64,000 nt of DNA from a bacterium (lineage in GTDB: Bacteria > Patescibacteriota > Gracilibacteria > UBA1369 > GCA-2718715): positions 62,001-126,000 of the forward strand of contig JABJGM010000007.1 of the NCBI GenBank assembly GCA_018662325.1, written 5' to 3'. Below the pieces are notes generated by a model. The model saw only the letters and a list, made by a program, of their open reading frames with translations, did not search any database and was not told the origin of the DNA. Shown one piece after another: positions 1,656-44,534 of this stretch (its first letter is position 1; the number at the start of each line of letters is the position of its first letter). The translations under genes were made by a program, and so were the position numbers.

Positions 1656-2665
1656 AACTGTAAAGATCTGTGCAACAATTTACAAACTGAAATAAAAACA
1701 GAAGAATTATCAAAATCAGCAAATATCTTTCCAAGGTCATCATTTTTACGTTTATATAAATCAATTATTGCAGAAGGATAAAATGGCCCCTTATTAATTA
1801 AAAGAGATTGAAAAGATTCAAGATATATAAGTTCAGAATCAGTCTTAAAATATTTAAAAACACAATCAACATTCACTCTAAACTCAAACCCCTTAGGTAA
1901 AGAATTCAAGGTATCAAATAATTTTTCCCAATTACTAACATCAATCTCTATGAGATTTTTATAAAAATATTCAAAACTAGCACTTTTTGATCTATTCTCA
2001 TTAAAAAAAGTATAAATTTTTTTAAGAGCCTTGTGAGGGTTGTAATCATTAAAAACTTCTAAAAAAGCTACTGCTATTTGCAATGAAAGGGTGGAATTAA
2101 AATCAATTAAAAATGGTTTTAATGAAAAAAGCATGTCTTGATCGAATTCCAAACTAGTTTGATGTAGGACTTCAAATTTATTTTCAAAATTAGATATAAA
2201 TGTTAACTTGATATAACTTTGTAAAACTACAAAATTATCAAAGTTATTTTTAAGTAGATATAAAAAATCTATAACATGATCTTTATCTGCAACTTCGGAG
2301 ATTAATAAAATATGGAAAAAATTATTTCTAGTTACCTCAGAAACTTTTCTTTCAATTGGTAAACCAATAGACTGTGTATCAATACTTCTAAGAACCTGCA
2401 TTACCGAAGCTGTAATTTTAGAAGATATATCAATCAAATCATCATGCAACTCTAAAATTTCTTTCTCATCACAATTCTGATTTCTTTTCAATAAAAGATC
2501 TTCTATGAAATTAGGGTCAATAACCTCAAAAGAAGCAGGATCAATTTGAATTCTTTTAAACTCATTATAGTAAACACCCTTATCATTAAAATAATTCTCT
2601 ACTGCTTCAGCTAAAGATAGCTGATGATCTTCTACTTTTTCTATATATGGTATTATTTCATGCAT
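1652..2665 (-). CDS. hypothetical helical protein downstream of the suf operon
   Basis: I do not recognise this 337-residue protein. It is acidic, rich in Leu, Phe, Asp and Asn, and appears entirely alpha-helical, like a helical-repeat protein. There is no signal peptide, membrane segment or cysteine cluster. It starts 3 nt downstream of the sufU stop, so it is very likely the last gene of the suf transcript. A role in Fe-S assembly is suggested only by position. Its tail overlaps the end of queG on the other strand. Confidence 0.7.
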   Translation of the reverse strand: MHEIIPYIEKVEDHQLSLAEAVENYFNDKGVYYNEFKRIQIDPASFEVIDPNFIEDLLLKRNQNCDEKEILELHDDLIDISSKITASVMQVLRSIDTQSIGLPIERKVSEVTRNNFFHILLISEVADKDHVIDFLYLLKNNFDNFVVLQSYIKLTFISNFENKFEVLHQTSLEFDQDMLFSLKPFLIDFNSTLSLQIAVAFLEVFNDYNPHKALKKIYTFFNENRSKSASFEYFYKNLIEIDVSNWEKLFDTLNSLPKGFEFRVNVDCVFKYFKTDSELIYLESFQSLLINKGPFYPSAIIDLYKRKNDDLGKIFADFDNSSVFISVCKLLHRSLQF

Positions 2666-6649: not shown

Positions 6650-7380
6650 TCAAATCCTTTTTGCTCTAATTCTTGAGCAAATTTATAATCTCCCGATTTT
6701 ACAATTTTTCCATCTTTAATAACATGAACAAAATCAGGTTTCACATAATCTAAAATTCTTTGATAGTGAGTTACAATCAAAATAGCATTCTCTTTGGACT
6801 TAAAATCATTAATTCCTTGAGAAACTACTTTTAAAGCATCTACATCTAATCCAGAATCTGTTTCGTCTAATAAAGCAATTTTTGGATTAAATAATTTCAA
6901 TTGTAAAATTTCAATTTTTTTCTTTTCTCCACCCGAAAAACCATGATTTAAATATCTTTGCAAAAAATCCTCCGGAACTTTCAATTCTATCAAAAAAGGT
7001 TTAATAAATTTTCTAAACTTAAAAGCTTTCATTCTTCTGAAATCTTTATCTTTATGACACATATGCTCATTATAAGCAGCTAATAAAAAATTAAACAAAG
7101 TAACACCAGAAATTTCTCGTGGATACTGAAAAGCTAAAAACACTCCTTCTAGTGATCTTTCAAAAGGTTCTAACTCAAGTAAATTAATACCGTTAAGATT
7201 TACTTCCCCACTTGAAATATCATAGGATGGATGCCCCATTAGACTATTAACCAAAGTCGACTTTCCAGCCCCATTTGGCCCCATAATACAATGTACTTCC
7301 CCTGACTTAATTTCTAAATCAATGCCTTTTAAAATATCTTTCTCTCCAGCACTTACTTTCAAGCCTTTAACTTTTAACAT
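6634..7380 (-). CDS. sufC: Suf ABC-type ATPase SufC
   Basis: SufC is the ATPase that drives conformational change of the SufB-SufD scaffold. Walker A is GPNGAGKST, the signature is FSGGEKKKIEI, Walker B is ALLDETDSGLD and the switch His is in IVTHYQ. I place the start at the ATG at 7380 (protein MLKVKGLKV..., 248 residues), because the frame open to 7470 adds 30 residues foreign to the family and would run over the divergent promoter. A good extended -10 element lies 7 nt upstream of 7380, so the mRNA may be leaderless or nearly so. First gene of the suf operon. Confidence 0.95.
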   Translation of the reverse strand: MLKVKGLKVSAGEKDILKGIDLEIKSGEVHCIMGPNGAGKSTLVNSLMGHPSYDISSGEVNLNGINLLELEPFERSLEGVFLAFQYPREISGVTLFNFLLAAYNEHMCHKDKDFRRMKAFKFRKFIKPFLIELKVPEDFLQRYLNHGFSGGEKKKIEILQLKLFNPKIALLDETDSGLDVDALKVVSQGINDFKSKENAILIVTHYQRILDYVKPDFVHVIKDGKIVKSGDYKFAQELEQKGFEWITE

Positions 7381-7387
7381 TTTATTT

Positions 7388-7396
7388 ATTATATCA
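7388..7396 (-). promoter_or_regulatory. extended -10 promoter of the suf operon
   Basis: On the minus strand the sequence reads TGATATAAT, an exact extended -10 (TGnTATAAT), with only a weak -35 upstream. The -10 hexamer (7388-7393) ends 7 nt before the sufC ATG at 7380, so transcription would begin at or next to the start codon. Confidence 0.6.
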
Positions 7397-7461
7397 AGCT
7401 GAATTCTATGCAAAAACACAACAAAAATCAAGTTTTGAAAGCACTTAAAAATTTCAGACAA

Positions 7462-7489
7462 TTGACCCAAAACAAAGCTGATGTATAAT
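7462..7489 (+). promoter_or_regulatory. promoter of the attenuated ATP-grasp operon
   Basis: TTGACC (7462-7467) and a perfect TATAAT (7484-7489) are separated by 16 nt. The predicted start of transcription is within a base or two of the leader-peptide ATG at 7496, which would make that reading frame leaderless. It is divergent from the suf promoter. Confidence 0.8.
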
Positions 7490-7495
7490 CATCAT

Positions 7496-7555
7496 ATGAA
7501 AGACAAAAAAATTATTATTATTTCAATTATTAATTTTAGCACCCCGAAAGTGTAA
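7496..7555 (+). CDS. isoleucine-rich leader peptide
   Basis: A 19-codon frame reads MKDKKIIIISIINFSTPKV and ends with TAA. Six ATT isoleucine codons lie in a seven-codon stretch (7511-7531). It starts right behind a strong promoter and is followed by two mutually exclusive hairpins, the second with a T-run. This is the organisation of amino-acid operon leader peptides such as those of ilv operons. The function is inferred; ATT is common in AT-rich DNA, so the codon run alone would not be proof. Confidence 0.65.
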   Translation: MKDKKIIIISIINFSTPKV

Positions 7556-7610
7556 TGTCTTTTATAAACTGATTATAAACCTAAACACTTTCAAAAGAAG
7601 TGTTTTTTTT
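7546..7610 (+). promoter_or_regulatory. candidate ribosome-mediated attenuator (Ile-responsive)
   Basis: Segment 1, GAAAGTGT (7546-7553), overlaps the last codons and stop of the leader peptide. It is complementary to segment 2, ACACTTTC (7585-7592). Segment 2 also forms the 5' arm of the terminator, AAACACTT (7583-7590) with AAGTGTTT (7598-7605). Between segments 1 and 2 is a small hairpin, TTTATAA (7561-7567) with TTATAAA (7573-7579). A ribosome reaching the stop codon would cover segment 1 and allow the terminator. One stalled at the Ile codons would leave segment 1 free to sequester segment 2 and permit readthrough. Confidence 0.65.
7583..7610 (+). terminator. leader terminator before the ATP-grasp gene
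   Basis: An 8-bp stem (AAACACTT/AAGTGTTT) with a 7-nt loop is followed by an uninterrupted T-run to 7610. It lies 14 nt upstream of the ATP-grasp start codon and downstream of the promoter, so it must be bypassed for the operon to be expressed. Confidence 0.8.
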
Positions 7611-7624
7611 AAAACCAAATTAAA

Positions 7625-8962
7625 ATGAAATTCACAAACACACAATTTCAAACAGGATATCAAAGATTTACTCCAGAAAGCTTTTTAGAGTACGGAAAGC
7701 CACTTTATATTCAAGATGTAGCCGAAGAGACTATGGAAGGAACAAACGAAAATTCAACAATTACTGGACTCGAAAAATATGGATACCGACTTTTACCCCT
7801 TGTAGCAAACAAGCCTGGTCTTTGGATTCACAATAAAAATGATAATGAGTACATAAATCAATACCTCGATTATTTAGCAACAGTAAGCGGAGAACAAAAT
7901 CAAATTCAAACACTTGGTATTGAACTAGCTAATCAAAGCTTAACTCAGGCTACACTAAACAACCTTGAGCAAATTGACCAATACAATTGCGAATCAATAA
8001 TTCCATTTATAATGTCTGAATCTAGTGAATTAATTGCAGACACACTAAACCTTGCATGCTTTGAAAGAAACTCAAACAGTGAAAAACTAAACAACAAAGG
8101 AATTTTCCTAGAAATGTGTAGTCTTAAAGGGGTAAAAACACCCTACGGATCAACATACAGAAACCCCGAGCAAGCTTGGGAGCTATATACGGAGCTTGAA
8201 AACAAAGGAGCTATTGCTTTTTATTCCAAATTATCAAGAAGTGCATCTGGACAAGGAATTAGACAATTTCATTATTCAGATCCGAACACAAAAGAAAATT
8301 TTAAAAGTTATTTAACCAATCAAGATACTATTTCAAACATGGAGCAGTATGGTATTAGGATGGATGAAGCCATTAAGTTTGATCAATCGCCAGCAATTGT
8401 TTTCTGGATGTGTCCAAGAACAGGAATTCAAGTTGTAAACTCTAACTATCAAATCCTATCAAAAAAAATGGAAAGCGATTTAAACCCAACTGTTCACAAG
8501 GGTGCAATGGGAAGCCTAACTGATAATGAACTTCAAGAGCTTAACCTAACGATTCAAAGAACAGAAGAAATCCTAAAAGAAAATCACTGTTATGGTCCTG
8601 GAAGCATAGATTTTATATCAAGAAAAAACCCCTTAACAAGATCCAATGAACACTTTGTAGTAGAAATGAATAAAAGAATTACAGGAGGGTATCATAATTA
8701 CTTAGCTAAAAAATTTGGATTTGAGCATTTTAGATCAGATTGCAACATGCCATGTTCTTCTAAGATTGCATTTAGTACGTTAATTACAAAGTTAAACGAG
8801 AATGATTTACTTTGGACTCAAAGTAAAAACTCTGGTACATTTGTGATAAACTACCAAACTGCTCCAATTCACGAAAAAATAGCAATTATATCCCTAGGAA
8901 AAAGCAAAAAGGAAGCTCAAAATGTATATTCACAAACTCAAGAACTAATCTCTAATTTATGA
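7625..8962 (+). CDS. ATP-grasp family protein, putative amino-acid/peptide ligase
   Basis: The 445-residue protein has an N-terminal pre-ATP-grasp-like part and a C-terminal ATP-grasp half. The latter shows YGPGSIDFI (about residues 323-331) and EMNKRITGGYHNY (about 347-359), resembling the metal- and nucleotide-binding end of the fold. ATP-grasp enzymes join a carboxylate to an amine or thiol through an acyl-phosphate. The substrate cannot be read from the sequence. It overlaps the M20 peptidase gene by 4 nt (ATGA), so the two are translationally coupled. The upstream Ile-rich leader suggests control by isoleucine supply, and hence a product linked to branched-chain amino acids or peptides; this is inference. 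Confidence 0.8.
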   Translation: MKFTNTQFQTGYQRFTPESFLEYGKPLYIQDVAEETMEGTNENSTITGLEKYGYRLLPLVANKPGLWIHNKNDNEYINQYLDYLATVSGEQNQIQTLGIELANQSLTQATLNNLEQIDQYNCESIIPFIMSESSELIADTLNLACFERNSNSEKLNNKGIFLEMCSLKGVKTPYGSTYRNPEQAWELYTELENKGAIAFYSKLSRSASGQGIRQFHYSDPNTKENFKSYLTNQDTISNMEQYGIRMDEAIKFDQSPAIVFWMCPRTGIQVVNSNYQILSKKMESDLNPTVHKGAMGSLTDNELQELNLTIQRTEEILKENHCYGPGSIDFISRKNPLTRSNEHFVVEMNKRITGGYHNYLAKKFGFEHFRSDCNMPCSSKIAFSTLITKLNENDLLWTQSKNSGTFVINYQTAPIHEKIAIISLGKSKKEAQNVYSQTQELISNL

Positions 8963-10068
8963 AAAGATTAAAAACTCAAGAATTACTAGTTGAATTAATA
9001 AAAATTCCAAGTGAATCGGCCAATCCAAAACAAGTAAAAAGAGCTATCAACTTTATAATTGACTACCTAAAAGAGAATATTCAAGATCACTCGAGTTTAG
9101 AATTTCTAGAGTTTGACTGTAAAGAATGCCATAACTTAGTCGTAAGGCCAAAAGGAATATCAAAATCCAAACTAACACTTTATAGCCACATAGATGTAGT
9201 AAAAGCAGATAACATAGAGCAATACACACCAATTATTAAAGATGATAAAATTTATGGAAGAGGATCAGGTGACATGAAATCCGGAACAGCAATTGAAATT
9301 CAAACTTTCATTGACCAATTAAATATCAACCCAAATTCATCACTAGCACTAATGATTGTAGGGGATGAAGAAATAGGGGGAATGAACGGCATTAGATACT
9401 TATTAGCTGAAAAAGAATATCGTACAGATTGTGTTTACATGCCAGATTCAGGATCTGGACTGGATACAATCATTACAGAACAAAAAGGAATTTTATTTAT
9501 AAAAGTTACTGCAAAGGGAGTTGCATCTCATGGATCAAGACCCCATGAAGGAAAAAATGCAATACTTAAAGCTTTCGAAGTTATCAACAAGTTATACACA
9601 TTTTTTGAAGAAAGTGATCCTACTAAATACAGATCTACAATTAATATCTCACAAATAATTTCTGGAAAATCATTTAATTCAGTTCCAGATAGTTGTGAAT
9701 TCACAATTGATATTAGATTTACTGAGATTTCAAAAGTAAATCAAATTCTCAAGTTCCTAGAAAGCTCTAATGATTTAAAATTTGAAACTCTACTTTTTGA
9801 TAAAAACTTTCATATAGAAAAAGAAAACACCTATCTTCAACAGTATCAAAAAATTGCTAAAAGCACTTTAGAGTCAGATGTTAAATTTAAATTTGAACAC
9901 GGTGGATCAGACGGGAGATTTTTTCAAAACTACCAAATACCTTGTGTTATAACAGGAATAAAAAAAGGTAATACCCACGGAGAAAACGAATGGGTAGACA
10001 CAGAAGAATTAGCTTTAGCAGAAAGCATTCTTAAAGATTTTATAACTCAAACTCTTGAAAAGTCCTAA
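8959..10068 (+). CDS. M20 family metallopeptidase (ArgE/DapE/dipeptidase type)
   Basis: The 369-residue protein has all M20 zinc-site elements: His77 and Asp79 in YSHIDVV, Asp105 in GRGSGDMKSG, the Glu137-Glu138 pair in VGDEEIGG, Asp163 in MPDSGSG and a late His in NTHGENEWV. The lid-domain motif ASHGSRPHEGKNAI is also present. M20 enzymes hydrolyse dipeptides or N-acylated amino acids. The start codon overlaps the stop of the ATP-grasp gene, and both lie under the same leader. A ligase and a hydrolase made together suggest turnover of a small peptide or acylated amino acid. The exact substrate is unknown. Confidence 0.9.
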   Translation: MKRLKTQELLVELIKIPSESANPKQVKRAINFIIDYLKENIQDHSSLEFLEFDCKECHNLVVRPKGISKSKLTLYSHIDVVKADNIEQYTPIIKDDKIYGRGSGDMKSGTAIEIQTFIDQLNINPNSSLALMIVGDEEIGGMNGIRYLLAEKEYRTDCVYMPDSGSGLDTIITEQKGILFIKVTAKGVASHGSRPHEGKNAILKAFEVINKLYTFFEESDPTKYRSTINISQIISGKSFNSVPDSCEFTIDIRFTEISKVNQILKFLESSNDLKFETLLFDKNFHIEKENTYLQQYQKIAKSTLESDVKFKFEHGGSDGRFFQNYQIPCVITGIKKGNTHGENEWVDTEELALAESILKDFITQTLEKS

Positions 10069-10081
10069 ACGGACTTTTTTA
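10058..10081 (+). terminator. terminator of the ATP-grasp/M20 operon
   Basis: AAAAGTCC and GGACTTTT form an 8-bp stem around a 5-nt loop, followed by a T-run. The 5' arm overlaps the last codons of the M20 gene. Confidence 0.85.
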
Positions 10082-10177: not shown

Positions 10178-11005
10178 ATGAAATTATTTACATACGGACC
10201 AAAATATTCACTAAGCTATATTCAAGCCAAAAAACTTTTCCCAGATGTAGAAATTACACCTGAAAACAATATTCAAAATTTACTAAAAAAAATTGTACGT
10301 AACAAAAACAGTTTAGCTATAATTAACATTGGTAATAATATAAACGGATTAAACACTCAATTTATTGAGAAGATAAACCAAAACAATCTAAAGATCTGGG
10401 ATATATACCAAACAAAACCAGATTTAAATCTTTATGCTCACTCAAATTTAATTAAGGATATTTACATTCCTCAAGATTATAGTTCAGTAGTTCAAGAAAG
10501 TTTAAACCAAAAATACTCTCAAATAAATCATGAAATCACACACGATTTAAAATCCGCCGTAGAGGCTTGTATGTATCAACCCAATGCTGCACTCGTGTGC
10601 AACCCAAAACTAGCCTCATTCCTTAAATTAAAAGCTGTAGATAAATATATTTTAGATCAAGGTAATCCTATTGTAGACTTTGCAATAATTAGTCAAAATC
10701 AAAACGCTCAAGTTCACACTCGCACTCACATAAAACTAACTCCGAAAAAAAATTTAGATAATGGATTGATAAATTTACTTTATCCCTTTAAAGAACATCA
10801 AGTTGCAATTTCGCAGATTCATACAATTCCTAATAAAGAAATTGCAAACCAAAACCACTTCCTACTTGAAATAAAAGGTGATCCACGTCAAGCAAAGCTT
10901 CGACAAACAATCACAATGCTCGAAAGAGATCTAAAAATATGTAATGTTCAGATTCTAGGAGGTCAAACTGACACACTAAAAAACAATTTAGAAGCTAAAG
11001 ACTAA
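10178..11005 (+). CDS. prephenate dehydratase-like protein with ACT-like domain, catalytic motif missing
   Basis: The 275-residue protein resembles PheA in layout: two periplasmic-binding-like lobes (from GPKYSLSYIQAKKLFPD at the N-terminus) and a C-terminal ACT-like region from about residue 199 (LLYPFKEHQVAISQIHTIP...VQILGGQ). The family's catalytic Thr-Arg-Phe motif is not seen; the corresponding position reads PIVDFAII (about 164-171). The ESRP motif of Phe-binding ACT domains reads HTIP. It may therefore be non-catalytic or have another substrate. It has its own start after a terminator, so it is probably transcribed separately from the M20 gene. The 3' end overlaps the convergent gene by 11 nt. 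Confidence 0.6.
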   Translation: MKLFTYGPKYSLSYIQAKKLFPDVEITPENNIQNLLKKIVRNKNSLAIINIGNNINGLNTQFIEKINQNNLKIWDIYQTKPDLNLYAHSNLIKDIYIPQDYSSVVQESLNQKYSQINHEITHDLKSAVEACMYQPNAALVCNPKLASFLKLKAVDKYILDQGNPIVDFAIISQNQNAQVHTRTHIKLTPKKNLDNGLINLLYPFKEHQVAISQIHTIPNKEIANQNHFLLEIKGDPRQAKLRQTITMLERDLKICNVQILGGQTDTLKNNLEAKD

Positions 11006-16993: not shown

Positions 16994-17713
16994 CTATTTG
17001 ATTTGAATCCAGACTTCATTTCTTCTTAAAAAAGGAAGGGTATAAGGACCATTATAAGCTGCATAGATAGCACCGTCTTCGTAAGAAAGATTATTAGAAT
17101 CTAAAATTTCAACCAGCTGGGAATACTTCTCCTTCATCTTCCTAGAACCCATAAACCCTGAATAACGAATCACAGCCAACTTTTGACCTTCAACTTTTTG
17201 AATATCAACCTTAGAATCATTAGGAATGATACTTGGATCAAAATCACTCGGCAAAACAAAAGCCATACCATTAAAATCATAATCCTTCACAGGAGCCGTC
17301 ATATCTAACTTCACAGGAGCTGTCATGTCTAATTTCACGGGAGCTGTCATGTCTAACTTCACAGGAGCTGTCATATCTAACTTCACAGGAGCTGCCATAT
17401 CTAACTTCACAGGAGCCGTCATGTCTAATTTCACGGGAGCTGTCATGTCTAAAGACTCAGAATCGCTGGAACCTGAAACACTATTTTCTCCAGAGATAAA
17501 ATTAAACAATTTTCTAAAAGCTTGATTTTCATATCTACTATCTTCATAGCTAACATAGGCTTGATAATAACCTTCATACTGTCGTACTTCAACATTACTA
17601 CCTAAATCTTGAACAACCTCATAATTAGGTGATTCTATTGAGTAATCAAAAAAGAACAAAAAGCCAAAGTAAACAATAGCAACCAGTAATAAAAATGATA
17701 AAAAATATCGCAT
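16994..17713 (-). CDS. SOUL family heme-binding-like protein with expanded repeat
   Basis: The 239-residue protein starts with one membrane-anchor helix (about residues 3-24) and then follows the SOUL/HBP pattern: YEVVQDLGSNVEVRQYEGY at the start, a (M-T-A-P-V) motif in the middle, and GFMGSRKMKEKYSQL and GPYTLPFLRRNEVWIQI at the end. Family members bind heme or tetrapyrroles; a substrate here is unproven. The usual M-T-x-P-V motif is multiplied into seven tandem 8-residue units (K-L-D-M-T-A-P-V). It stands alone, with no clear operon partner. Confidence 0.85.
   Translation of the reverse strand: MRYFLSFLLLVAIVYFGFLFFFDYSIESPNYEVVQDLGSNVEVRQYEGYYQAYVSYEDSRYENQAFRKLFNFISGENSVSGSSDSESLDMTAPVKLDMTAPVKLDMAAPVKLDMTAPVKLDMTAPVKLDMTAPVKLDMTAPVKDYDFNGMAFVLPSDFDPSIIPNDSKVDIQKVEGQKLAVIRYSGFMGSRKMKEKYSQLVEILDSNNLSYEDGAIYAAYNGPYTLPFLRRNEVWIQIK
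17286..17453 (-). repeat. seven 24-bp in-frame tandem repeats in the SOUL gene
   Basis: Seven consecutive 24-nt units encode (K)LDMTAPV; one unit has MAAPV instead. Unit variants (TAAC/TAAT and CAGG/CGGG) recur in the same order at both ends, which points to duplication of pairs of units rather than simple one-unit slippage. The length is a multiple of 24 and keeps the reading frame. Confidence 0.95.
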
Positions 17714-40011: not shown

Positions 40012-40992
40012 TTACTCAGCCAATCTCTCCTTTAAAAATTCAATAATATCGTATTCTGCAGCATCTACCCCTTTTTCATCAGCAACAAAAACTGATAACC
40101 AATCTCCAAAGTTCACCAAATACATTGTGTTTTCAATTAAGGAATCTCCTAAACTCCAAACATTAAATATATCATCTGTATATTTCCCATAGATTTCTTG
40201 AGAAATTTCAGAACGCTTTGAATTTTGTAAAAACTCACTTGGAGTTCTAAAATTAATGACCAGCAAATTATCAGTATTGGTTCTCCATCCAAGAATTTCA
40301 TTGTGATTCATTTCTGGAATCACATTTGACCAACCTAATGTTTTAGAATTTTCATTTAATTGCTGTTTTATTCGATTCCCTACTCCCTCATAGCCTTTCA
40401 TTACATATAAAACAGGAGTTTTATTACCTAATTGCTTTGCAATTTCTAAAGCTTGCTTTTGAATTTTCTCTTGATTGTCAATTAAAACCTGAATCGATTT
40501 TTCAAACTCAGTATAAAATTTATCAGAAATCAGTCCATATTTTTCTAAAATAGACATCACACAAATCATAGAAAAATTAAACATCGCTCTTGGAGCATTT
40601 CCAGAAGGTAAAATTAAATGATTTAAATTTTTATCTTTCGCAAATTCCAACAAACTTCCTCCACTACTTATTACAGCAATTTCTGCTTTTTTCTCAAACG
40701 CTTGTTTGAAAGCCGATAAAGTTTCTTCTGTGTTACCAGAATAAGATGAAACAATCACCAAAGTTTTATGATTCACAAAAGCCGGAATATGATAATCCTT
40801 ACACAAAACCAATGGAATTTTAAGCTCATCATGCACCAAATCCTTAACTACAGATCCTGCAATACCAGATCCCCCAAGCCCACAAATTAAAACATTATCA
40901 AATTTTTTATGAGTATCATGGAACTTACTTTCGTCTACAATTTTCAAAGCTTCTAAAATTTGTGCTTCAAAGCCAGCCACTATTTTTTTCAT
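40012..40992 (-). CDS. bifunctional phosphoglucose/phosphomannose isomerase (SIS)
   Basis: The 326-residue protein contains two SIS sugar-isomerase modules. The first has LICGLGGSGIAGSVVKDL and the loop VIVSSYSGNTEETLSAF. The second includes the catalytic region EMNHNEILGW, typical of the PGI/PMI family found in archaea and some bacteria. It would interconvert glucose-6-, fructose-6- and mannose-6-phosphate, feeding glycolysis and sugar nucleotides. Confidence 0.92.
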   Translation of the reverse strand: MKKIVAGFEAQILEALKIVDESKFHDTHKKFDNVLICGLGGSGIAGSVVKDLVHDELKIPLVLCKDYHIPAFVNHKTLVIVSSYSGNTEETLSAFKQAFEKKAEIAVISSGGSLLEFAKDKNLNHLILPSGNAPRAMFNFSMICVMSILEKYGLISDKFYTEFEKSIQVLIDNQEKIQKQALEIAKQLGNKTPVLYVMKGYEGVGNRIKQQLNENSKTLGWSNVIPEMNHNEILGWRTNTDNLLVINFRTPSEFLQNSKRSEISQEIYGKYTDDIFNVWSLGDSLIENTMYLVNFGDWLSVFVADEKGVDAAEYDIIEFLKERLAE

Positions 40993-41070: not shown

Positions 41071-41679
41071 TTAATGCACTAGCATTTTTTTGAAGTCCAA
41101 CAAATTATTAATCAAATTTTCCTTTGGATAAATACAAATTTTATCAACATAACTTTCAACTTCAAAAAATTCATCTAAATTTTCAGAATAATTTAATATA
41201 GACATTAAATTATCCAAGAATTCATGGGCTTCTAAAGAATCAAAACCAAAATTACTTCGCAATTCATCATTGGAAATTTCATAATTAGTAAACAAAATAC
41301 TTAATGCTTTTGCCTCCATGTTTTCAACAAAGAGCCAATTATCAATACCAAATACAACCTCATTTAAAAAAGATGAATAAACAAAAATTCTACCACATTC
41401 ATAAAAACATGTTCTATTTAAATCGGAAACTTGCTCCCTAATATTCTGTGTATCAATTTCAGAAATCACCTTGAAAACCTTGTTTGGTTTTTCAATTAAT
41501 CTACTTGCAATATTATCAAAATTCAACTTCAAAAGACTCCTAATATCATCAAAAACACTGTTCAAAGGTTCGGGAACTGACTCATTAAAAATCTCATCAA
41601 CTTTCATATCTTTATTTTCAGGCTCTATTTTTTCAAAATCAATAACTAAAGGCTTCCCCGGAAATTTAGGTTTTGTCAT
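41071..41679 (-). CDS. hypothetical acidic helical protein
   Basis: I do not recognise this 202-residue protein. It is acidic, rich in Leu, Phe, Asn and Glu, likely helical, with no signal or membrane segment. In composition it resembles the orphan at 1652-2665, but I see no shared motif. Confidence 0.6.
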   Translation of the reverse strand: MTKPKFPGKPLVIDFEKIEPENKDMKVDEIFNESVPEPLNSVFDDIRSLLKLNFDNIASRLIEKPNKVFKVISEIDTQNIREQVSDLNRTCFYECGRIFVYSSFLNEVVFGIDNWLFVENMEAKALSILFTNYEISNDELRSNFGFDSLEAHEFLDNLMSILNYSENLDEFFEVESYVDKICIYPKENLINNLLDFKKMLVH

Positions 41680-41810: not shown

Positions 41811-42590
41811 CTACTTAAGACCAAGTGTTAAAAAGAAATAGTTCTCACCATCAACTTTTCTATAATCAACCTCAAAAGAGTAACCAAATTCAACTTGTCT
41901 TCTGACTCCATTTACTTGCTTTAAATTGTATCCTACAGAAAAATTAAAATTCTCATCATCAAAAATTCTTGTCCTCATTAAAAAGTCTGAAACATTAACT
42001 CTTAAATCAGCATGCATTCTAGATAAACCAATATACAAACTCTCATTATTATAAACTACAGAAGGAAGAAAAGAAGATTCTACTCCATCAGAATTTAAAT
42101 GAGTCTGAAATTCAAATAAAAACTTAATATCTGCGAAACAATTCAAAAGTAAATAAGCTTGATTGAAAGACTCCATTTGACCATTTTCATAATAAGCACC
42201 TATCCCCAAACGAGACATTTCTAATTGAAAAGGTTTTTTCGAATCAGAAAAATAAGTAGAAGCCATATAAAGACCTGCATTTGTATAATCAACAGGAATC
42301 AAGTAATTAAACTTTCCTCTTACAAAAGGCATAACCTCATACATATGTTCTCTATTCTTATCCAAATTAAGCCTTAATTGCAAACTTGTATAATCAGTAA
42401 ATTCTTCTGCAGAGTTATCAGCTGATTGCTGAACTAAAGCTGGAGCTGTGTCTTGAGCATTAACAGTATCTAAATTTCCAAGCATAGCTGAAAAACTTAA
42501 AGCTAAGCTTGAAACTAAAGTAGTAAATTTTGATGATTTATTTGTTTTCAAAGCGGGTGTATTGATTGAACTTTCAATTTTAAATGACAT
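41811..42590 (-). CDS. exported beta-rich (outer-membrane-barrel-like) protein
   Basis: The 259-residue protein has a basic/hydrophobic leader ending in the signal-peptidase-like site VNAQD (about residue 45). The remainder has alternating polar/hydrophobic strands with many Tyr, Phe and Asn residues, such as LYIGLSRMHADLRVNVSDF, FNFSVGYNLKQVNG and VEFGYSFEVDY, and it ends in a strand (YFFLTLGLK). This pattern is that of small beta-barrels, but a secreted beta-sandwich is an alternative. It has a strong own promoter and terminator, so it is probably highly expressed. Confidence 0.6.
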   Translation of the reverse strand: MSFKIESSINTPALKTNKSSKFTTLVSSLALSFSAMLGNLDTVNAQDTAPALVQQSADNSAEEFTDYTSLQLRLNLDKNREHMYEVMPFVRGKFNYLIPVDYTNAGLYMASTYFSDSKKPFQLEMSRLGIGAYYENGQMESFNQAYLLLNCFADIKFLFEFQTHLNSDGVESSFLPSVVYNNESLYIGLSRMHADLRVNVSDFLMRTRIFDDENFNFSVGYNLKQVNGVRRQVEFGYSFEVDYRKVDGENYFFLTLGLK

Positions 42591-42659: not shown

Positions 42660-44534
42660 TCATTGCACCAAAGATTTAAACTCAAACATTAACTCCAAAT
42701 CAGAGTAACGCTCAAAATCAAAAGATGGATTCTTTTCTGAAATCTTAAAATGTACATACTTTTTAATTTTTTCAAAAAGGCTCAAACCAATGAAATCTAA
42801 ATTTAAACCTCTACAGATTCCTATAAAATGTATTTTATTCTTAAAACCTAATTTATCTAATAAAAGATCTAATTCCTCTTTACTTAATTCTATATATTCA
42901 ACAATTCCGACAGCTTTGGCTATTAATTTAAAAGTAGCATACTTTTCACAAAAATCTTCAAAAGCAGATGGATCAACCATTTGAAACTTTAACATTACAT
43001 CTTCTAAAAAAAAGAAGTTAACGATTCGAAATAAAGATCTATCTATAACCTTTTGATTTATTTGTTGTTGAATATATTGAGTTAATAACTGCTCTTTTCC
43101 AGCAACATGCATGATAGATAAATATTTTTCTAAATCCTTAGCATTTAAATCTAATTTTAACTTCGAAAGTCTTATCCCCAAAAAAGTAATTTCATCTTTT
43201 AGATCTTTTTTAAAAGTTAACTCCTGAAAATTAATATGTTTACAAGCTAAGAAAAACTCATCCACAAAATATTTTTGAGCACTTAATTCACCTTCATATT
43301 TTTTCATATTTATAATAAATTGATCAAAAAATAATTTAAACTGACTTTCAAAATTTTCATTATCTAAATTAACATCTCTCATTAAAGTAGCTAAAACCGG
43401 AAAATTTCTCTCTATTGTATAATCAAGCTTCTCCAAACCTGTATTTTCTTGATTAAAATCTGCCCATGTAACATCTAAAATCGTATAATCAACTTCATTC
43501 TTTTTAATTGTATAAAAAACATTCCAAACATGTTTTATATAAGCTTCTCCAAAATCATCCTTTAAACCTTCATCTGAACTTTCAGGTCTATATGAATGAT
43601 TATGCTCAAACTCACAATAAGTATCATTCAAAAAGTTAAACTTTAATTGATTTTCTTTAAGGGAATCAAAAACAAACTTTGTTAATCCTGCAATATGACG
43701 ACACACCCCATTTCCACTCCAATTGGAATTAGTATGATTTTCTTCAAAATCCTGAATCATATCCAAAGCTGAAAAATTATCAATTTTAGATGAATCCCCC
43801 TTTTCGCCAATACTATCAAAATTATACTTAGTATGATGATTTACAAAATGCACAGTTAGAAAAATTGCTTGCCTTGGAGACAAACTTCTTAAATTCTTTA
43901 CTTTTAAATCAACTAAAACACTAGACTCCCTTTTAAAGAAATCATCAAAACATTTAAAGATTTTATCTTTTGAATCTAAATCTTCCATACTCTTTTCATA
44001 AACACTCGATCTAAAACGGCCAGACTTTAAAGACTTTAAAAGTCTTTCTGATTCCACATTTATAGCAGTAGGGCTTTCATTGAGTTCTGACTTGGGATTA
44101 AAATTATCAAAAGAAGTAAAATTAAATCCTAAATTTTCTGTTTCAAACTTTAACAAAGGCTTTCCAGATAACTTTGCAAATTTATAAATTGATTCTAAAT
44201 AAAAATCTTTGGCTTCTTTAAAATTCTCAAAAGTTTTAAAGCCCAGTACTAAAGTCTCCTCTTGAGTATTTAACATTTCTAAGCTTGGATACAAAATTTC
44301 AAACCTACCATCTCTTAAAAAATTAAAAGACACCGGACAATTTTCAAAATCCACAAACCCTTCCACACCTAAAGCTTCAAATACATCTTGCTTTAAGGTT
44401 CTAGCTATTTTTTTAGCTTCATGCAAAGAATCACAATAATGCTCTTGAGAACCTTTCAGTTTTCCATTTTCTAAATGTTCTGGTCCAGAAAAAGAATATC
44501 CATCTTGAGATTTTTTAACATTAAAATAACTCAT
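42660..44534 (-). CDS. large orphan protein with transglutaminase-like core
   Basis: The 624-residue protein contains a Cys-His-Asp transglutaminase-like core: GNGVCRHIAGLTKFVF (Cys about 279), KHVWNVFYTI (His about 335) and YTILDVTWADF (Asp about 354). The flanking ~270-residue segments are helical and unrecognised. No signal peptide is seen, so it is probably cytoplasmic. Such cores can be cysteine proteases, peptide N-glycanases or crosslinking enzymes. It ends in TGA, one of only two TGA stops I found. Confidence 0.65.
   Translation of the reverse strand: MSYFNVKKSQDGYSFSGPEHLENGKLKGSQEHYCDSLHEAKKIARTLKQDVFEALGVEGFVDFENCPVSFNFLRDGRFEILYPSLEMLNTQEETLVLGFKTFENFKEAKDFYLESIYKFAKLSGKPLLKFETENLGFNFTSFDNFNPKSELNESPTAINVESERLLKSLKSGRFRSSVYEKSMEDLDSKDKIFKCFDDFFKRESSVLVDLKVKNLRSLSPRQAIFLTVHFVNHHTKYNFDSIGEKGDSSKIDNFSALDMIQDFEENHTNSNWSGNGVCRHIAGLTKFVFDSLKENQLKFNFLNDTYCEFEHNHSYRPESSDEGLKDDFGEAYIKHVWNVFYTIKKNEVDYTILDVTWADFNQENTGLEKLDYTIERNFPVLATLMRDVNLDNENFESQFKLFFDQFIINMKKYEGELSAQKYFVDEFFLACKHINFQELTFKKDLKDEITFLGIRLSKLKLDLNAKDLEKYLSIMHVAGKEQLLTQYIQQQINQKVIDRSLFRIVNFFFLEDVMLKFQMVDPSAFEDFCEKYATFKLIAKAVGIVEYIELSKEELDLLLDKLGFKNKIHFIGICRGLNLDFIGLSLFEKIKKYVHFKISEKNPSFDFERYSDLELMFEFKSLVQ

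Follow-up and report, generated by a model that had tools for sequence, protein, structure and literature searches.

The ilvBNC attenuator of Corynebacterium glutamicum, whose leader is MTIIRLVVVTARRLP (PMC11857589, PMC10272879), combines a leader peptide rich in branched-chain residues, a transcription start one nt from the start codon, and a terminator, an antiterminator and an anti-antiterminator (PMC11857589); it controls acetohydroxyacid synthase, i.e. the synthesis of the very amino acid that is sensed. In Staphylococcus aureus, the ilv-leu attenuator is reported to respond to Leu and to the inhibition of IleRS by mupirocin, with a Leu/Ile-rich leader peptide and a terminator placed before a biosynthetic operon (PMC5794164). 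The branched-chain leaders of Actinobacteria (PMC1262725) work similarly, and T-box elements (RF00230) also sense tRNA charging.

The locus described here resembles ilvBNC in its leader composition, in its predicted transcription start and in its three alternative RNA structures, and the S. aureus system in joining such a leader to a terminator; unlike a T-box, its leader relies on a translated frame. Its targets differ from those of the attenuators above, and its lineage from those of the S. aureus and actinobacterial systems. In place of biosynthetic genes it precedes genes for a putative peptide ligase and an amidohydrolase, in a group of bacteria in which neither KARI (IlvC, PF01450) nor IlvD (PF00920) was found in 13 genomes (controls, 14 of 14). 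The type of mechanism is thus known, and what is new is the target, a BesA/PGM1/LdmS-like ligase with varying amidohydrolases, and the Peregrinibacteria/Gracilibacteria-type hosts. Among the results of our literature search there was no paper on attenuation by leader peptides in members of the Candidate Phyla Radiation, in Gracilibacteria or in Patescibacteria.

The window, i.e. the whole 64,000-nt stretch of DNA that was analysed, contains the following elements at this locus:

7462-7489, plus strand: sigma-70-type promoter, TTGACC-16-TATAAT, with transcription predicted to start at ~7496
7496-7555, plus strand: leader peptide frame MKDKKIIIISIINFSTPKV, 19 codons, probably leaderless
7496-7505, plus strand: 5' arm of a 10-bp protector (anti-antiterminator) stem, pairing with 7556-7565 in the minimum-energy fold
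7546-7553, plus strand: segment 1, GAAAGTGT, which overlaps the stop codon of the leader and forms the 5' arm of the antiterminator
7556-7565, plus strand: 3' arm of the protector stem, pairing with 7496-7505
7561-7579, plus strand: small hairpin TTTATAA/TTATAAA inside the antiterminator loop
7583-7610, plus strand: intrinsic terminator made of AAACACTTT (7583-7591), a CAAAA loop, GAAGTGTTT (7597-7605) and T8 (7603-7610), -7.1 kcal/mol
7585-7592, plus strand: segment 2, antiterminator 3' arm ACACTTTC, common to the terminator 5' arm
7625-8962, plus strand: ATP-grasp peptide ligase-like protein (BesA/PGM1/LdmS-like), 445 aa, from profile and fold matches
8959-10068, plus strand: M20 family amidohydrolase/peptidase, 369 aa, DapE/ArgE/CPG2-like, from Pfam and PDB matches
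10057-10080, plus strand: terminator after the M20 gene, AAAAGTCC..GGACTTTT, closing the two-gene operon

We consider it very likely that these elements form a ribosome-mediated transcription attenuator that senses branched-chain amino acids (here Ile) and controls the ligase/M20 operon. An initial annotation had read from the sequence a good promoter, a 19-codon frame with six ATT Ile codons in seven, a segment 1 over its stop codon complementary to a segment 2, and a terminator using segment 2. All of these parts are present. TTGACC (7462-7467) and TATAAT (7484-7489) match the consensus at 11 of 12 positions, a quality reached only five times in the 64 kb (both strands, spacers 15-19), and ATT occupies codons 6-9, 11 and 12. 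Segment 1 is the exact reverse complement of segment 2, giving a perfect 8-bp antiterminator. The terminator stem has 9 bp, including one G-U, and a loop of 5; it is weak, and a simple terminator scan overlooked it because only two of its pairs are G-C.

Two features are absent from the initial annotation. The leader ATG lies 6 nt past the -10 box and coincides with the predicted transcription start, so that the leader is probably leaderless, with a transcript inferred to begin at or next to its start codon. The second is the protector stem, which together with a GCAC/GTGT pairing favors the terminator in the absence of a ribosome; in a fold of the whole leader without ribosome, the terminator has a probability of 0.92. 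No Rfam family, T-box included, was matched at 7380-7700 up to E = 1.

Could an AT-rich spacer produce an ATT run, a hairpin and a T tract by chance, downstream of a promoter that simply serves a constitutive operon? The genome (980 kb, 31% G+C), the short stems and the weakness of a terminator with two G-C pairs leave room for this. At the Ile frequency of the neighboring genes (0.089), at least six Ile in seven given codons have a probability of ~3e-6. The four-plus-two pattern of Ile codons, ATHATHATHATHNNNATHATH, occurs 5 times in the genome, and only the window copy lies in a leader in sense orientation; the remaining Ile runs, antisense to genes or, in a spacer, likewise antisense, were rejected as leaders. 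None of 1000 dinucleotide shuffles reached the observed score of the combined ORF, terminator and antiterminator, and the fold z-score of 7496-7610 is -3.4. As the arrangement also recurs before nine homologous genes from other genera and families, and in view of the codon-order permutations given below, a chance origin is scarcely credible.

We then compared the locus with its relatives. No close homologue of the window ATP-grasp was found in the searched genome contigs, and a single-sequence search within the class returned only two hits; a profile built from these (A1) recovered more homologues, which a second profile (A2) confirmed, adding one. Note that alignment A2 is too diverse for scanning genome contigs for close homologues. 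The leader-bearing homologues come from nine other genomes of the class and are distant, with 14-25% identity to the window ATP-grasp; three of these genomes (L023, L020 and L091) read TGA as Gly. One further homologue, L021, starts at a contig end and its upstream region is unreadable. The leader frames are:

L019: MINRLNNLIINLNIIILSRIER
L017: MLPSSTTQLQRSTILAAFWVVNIILYVFT
L025: MNTAVKTYVNSAQSAEKALVFAIIISLIILF
L027: MNSYSIITIGILGSFGRRGDT
L030: MNSYSIINIVILGSFRRKRDT
L038, of the same family as the window: MIVFRIYKCCKLLSIIRRII
L023, TGA = Gly: MHTASVVILVLILLLGSERSSLSM
L020, TGA = Gly: MKNIESLLSLMIILLVKSKRVFVN
L091, TGA = Gly: MKFRGLILNIILSIPPGGRSI

The initial annotation would have been refuted by relatives that keep the genes and lack the Ile run or the pairing segments, or by a terminator hairpin that is not conserved. 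An Ile/Leu/Val-rich frame precedes the gene in all nine homologues, which belong to other genera and families, and an antiterminator arm from around the leader stop pairs with a terminator arm in eight of them (9/10 with the window). The exception is L025, which has a leader and a T-run, no clear antiterminator and an ambiguous terminator. This exception apart, the relatives have what was required of them, and the attenuator reading withstands the test. A terminator between leader and gene was detected in 8/10 loci by automatic scan and in L017 by eye, its bulged stem being rejected by the scan. In L091 the antiterminator is extended, and CCCACCAGGCGGTAGGAGC pairs almost in full with GCTCCCACCGCCTGGTGGG. 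The distance from leader stop to gene is 53-90 nt in the ten loci and 66-78 nt in eight of them, and the leaders of L019, L017, L020, L025, L027 and L030 follow promoters of like quality (10-11 of 12). When the ten regions were shuffled, eight arrangements were detected, seven at 0/1000 and L027 at 3/1000. As for the proposed specificity for Ile, this residue is always present, usually with Leu and sometimes with Val; judged from these frames, the specificity would be better described as branched-chain than as Ile alone. A single origin of the leader-bearing ATP-grasps was not retained, as the tree needs four changes and separates L091 and L038 from the main group, a verdict that the long branches make unsure.

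Could the conserved property be the peptide itself? The short frame could be a RiPP precursor that is joined or extended by the ATP-grasp enzyme and processed by the peptidase, the terminator only lowering enzyme expression relative to the precursor. The ligase is PGM1-like, PGM1 acts in this way on the pheganomycin precursor, and a small frame beside an ATP-grasp and a peptidase gene is typical of RiPP loci; the neighborhoods of PGM1 and of graspetides have been described (PMC8939145). Between L027 and L030, two species of one genus, the leaders differ at five nucleotides, all five changes being nonsynonymous, while every Ile codon and both RNA structures survive; in the antiterminator, one A-U pair has become G-C by a double change. 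In this small sample, selection thus appears to act on the codons and the RNA and not on the peptide. The ten leaders share no motif or core beyond their Ile/Leu/Val content, the partner hydrolases are of different folds among loci, and a precursor needs neither a segment at or near its stop that pairs with a terminator arm, as found in nine of ten loci, nor a switch that tracks Ile/Leu/Val codons. We therefore regard a RiPP precursor as very unlikely, and attenuation as the reading to be retained.

To locate the switch point, a ribosome was placed codon by codon on each leader, with an assumed 13-nt footprint from the start of the A-site codon, and the probability of the antiterminator was calculated at equilibrium on RNA truncated before the terminator 3' arm is transcribed, the terminator arms being named by hand. 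In all nine analysable leaders (the window and eight others), the change from antiterminator to terminator comes where the Ile/Leu/Val run ends. For the window, the antiterminator probability is ~0.75 through N13, 0.70 at F14 and 0.15 at S15; it is 1.00 through L14 and 0.12 at S17 in L023, and 0.87 at L14 and 0.12 at K17 in L020. L019, L017, L027, L030 and L091 switch alike, L038 less sharply. Permuting the codon order over the nine leaders never reached the observed Ile/Leu/Val enrichment before the switch (0/20000); for the window alone, p is only 0.06. Equilibrium on the full-length RNA agrees for the window, L017, L023, L027, L030 (partly) and L091. The terminator dominates on the full RNA in L019, L020 and L038, where read-through thus needs co-transcriptional (kinetic) trapping. 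These calculations, which do not amount to a demonstration in a cell, support ribosome-mediated attenuation of the classical type, its signal being Ile or Ile/Leu/Val. The three-segment geometry that had been suggested therefore holds at the level of mutually exclusive computed folds, with a switch where the regulatory codons end.

The position of the switch also bears on a sensor of another kind, in which the leader would respond to an antibiotic or to nascent-chain arrest of the ribosome, as ermCL and msrDL do, and the operon would inactivate the compound. Leaders that are hydrophobic and rich in Ile are known from drug-responsive attenuators, and ATP-grasp ligases and amidohydrolases could modify small molecules. 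Arrest peptides have specific sequences, whereas the present leaders are unrelated except in their Ile/Leu/Val composition; moreover, the switch lies at the end of a whole run and not at one codon, and no resistance family was matched. We judge this explanation highly improbable. The computed sequence parts, their conservation, the mutually exclusive folds and the placement of the switch, with the recurrence of the whole, make classical ribosome-mediated attenuation the most likely mechanism.

Under this attenuation mechanism, RNA polymerase would start at ~7496 and a ribosome would load on the leaderless 19-codon frame without delay. With charged tRNA-Ile plentiful, it would pass the six Ile codons and cover segment 1 at the stop codon; segment 2 would then be free to form the terminator, and transcription would end before the ATP-grasp and M20 genes. 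With charged tRNA-Ile short, the ribosome would wait on the Ile codons and leave segment 1 free to pair with segment 2 before the terminator 3' arm is made, allowing read-through. If no ribosome loads, the 5' stem is expected to form and the terminator would again be favored. The genes so induced would be a dipeptide- or isopeptide-type ATP-grasp ligase and an M20 amidohydrolase, their most likely substrate being a peptide or conjugate of branched-chain amino acids that the host is presumably unable to make. In the absence of expression data, it is an inference that the promoter is used, that the leader is translated and that read-through depends on Ile, and so is the enzyme substrate.

As for the controlled genes, the initial annotation had named an ATP-grasp ligase and an M20 peptidase outside classical Ile biosynthesis. 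Both identifications hold, and these are not known branched-chain amino acid genes; attenuators of this class usually, though not of necessity, control the synthesis, import or charging of the amino acid that they sense. The M20 gene overlaps the ligase gene by 4 nt and its product matches PF01546 (8.7e-24), PF07687 (1.6e-18) and PDB 2rb7 (1.3e-38). The window ligase has no Pfam match, and its sequence alone gave no hit in a PDB search, for which a profile of the leader-bearing homologues was used instead. This profile matches 8yi6 (BesA, 7.8e-15), 7r8p (SAOUHSC_02373, 4.5e-10), 3wvq (PGM1, 0.0021) and 8ynd, a Streptomyces ATP-grasp peptide ligase. SAOUHSC_02373 of Staphylococcus aureus (7r8p/7r8q) we take to be LdmS. 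An AlphaFold model of the window ligase (pLDDT 66, pTM 0.66) retrieves 8ynd, 8yi6 (BesA) and 3wvq (PGM1) first with Foldseek (E 1e-18 to 4e-15, TM 0.58-0.65). BesA, PGM1 and LdmS are thus the best profile or fold matches, with only 13-14% identity to the window ligase over the aligned structure. The ATP-grasp residues K158, K202, G209/G211, D329, N349 and R351 are conserved; the NCBIfam LdmS family (NF047900) matches weakly, in L019 alone, and PGM1_C is found in two homologues. Fold, profile and residues together indicate a predicted ligase of PGM1/BesA/LdmS type, whose peptide-bond ligase activity is inferred. Gamma-glutamyl bonds are made by BesA, Asp-Met bonds by LdmS, and N-terminal amide bonds by PGM1 (PMC8939145).

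The second gene varies among loci: it is M20 in the window, L027 and L030, AstE/AspA in L017, L020, L023 and L021 (the last by similarity), Asparaginase_2 in L038, and the L091 gene looks, on visual inspection alone and without an NCBIfam hit, like a class II glutamine amidotransferase. M20, AstE/AspA and Asparaginase_2 enzymes cleave amide bonds of amino acid conjugates. The attenuator is found alongside M20, AstE/AspA, Asparaginase_2 and GATase-like genes, which suggests an equivalent step carried out by enzymes that are not related to each other. Our best guess is a ligase/hydrolase cycle acting on a branched-chain dipeptide or isopeptide, or on conjugates, with substrates that remain inferred; the simplest functional inference is that the cycle is induced when branched-chain aminoacyl-tRNA is scarce. 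The role with an Ile-containing peptide or branched-chain derivative put forward in the initial annotation is likewise an inference, one that fits the ligase family and the missing Ilv genes. More tentatively, and with more doubt than conviction, these attenuators, kept under different genetic codes and with hydrolases exchanged for others of unrelated fold, may represent an undescribed branched-chain starvation response of Peregrinibacteria/Gracilibacteria-type hosts without their own synthesis of these amino acids, inducing a cycle in which branched-chain di- or isopeptides are formed and cleaved for storage, protection or scavenging. The data suggest that a sensor devoted to branched-chain amino acids operates even in ultra-small bacteria that lack the pathway to make them. 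For uncharacterised peptide ligases, such regulation is a functional clue, pointing to branched-chain amino acids as substrate or need.

Two genes may also be recorded. At L020, ~1716-2198 (minus strand), a G198 ATP-grasp frame is broken by one in-frame TAA (TGA = Gly), through decay or an assembly error. In the window, a prephenate dehydratase-like gene (10178-11005; PF00800, 8.3e-13) lies directly downstream of the operon terminator.

We also scanned 146 genes, in the window and in eight 12-20 kb stretches around homologues, for any combination of leader and terminator. Such a combination precedes 11/146 genes, i.e. 7/9 ATP-grasps vs 4/137 other genes, and the six best scores all belong to leader-bearing ATP-grasp genes. 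As the thresholds were chosen with the first leaders already known, this is a contrast and not a clean prediction. About 28 ATP-grasp loci of greater divergence, from other parts of the phylum, showed no leader/terminator arrangement, nor did a related in-class ATP-grasp group whose partner is a class I glutamine amidotransferase. This leaderless pair of ATP-grasp and class I glutamine amidotransferase-like genes, found at L024, L026, L028, L029, L032 and L033 in genomes with TGA = Gly, is uncharacterised. Hydrophobic frames upstream of the control ATP-grasps L050, L059 and L063 were rejected, being tails of upstream genes. Elsewhere in the window, weaker combinations of short frame and terminator at 41112-41174 and 42689-42757 (minus strand), before 40012-40992 and 41811-42590, are probably due to chance.

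Other regulatory elements and repeats were noted in passing. Upstream of ileS (G000, contig C7), there is no Ile-rich leader; instead, 3442-3623 of L009 (minus strand) is T-box-like, with an RF00230 match at E 2.2e-5, below the gathering score, and a TGGTGGTACCGCGG motif, so that the same genome probably has a second Ile-tRNA sensor, a T-box, before ileS. In L005, a weak Phe_leader match (1404-1484; RF01859, E 0.22) between nusA-like and pilB-like genes is probably the nusA terminator. Finally, 16994-17713 of the window (minus strand) encodes a small SOUL-like protein in whose middle part LDMTAPVK is repeated in tandem about seven times, almost without change; the length of this repeat may be variable.
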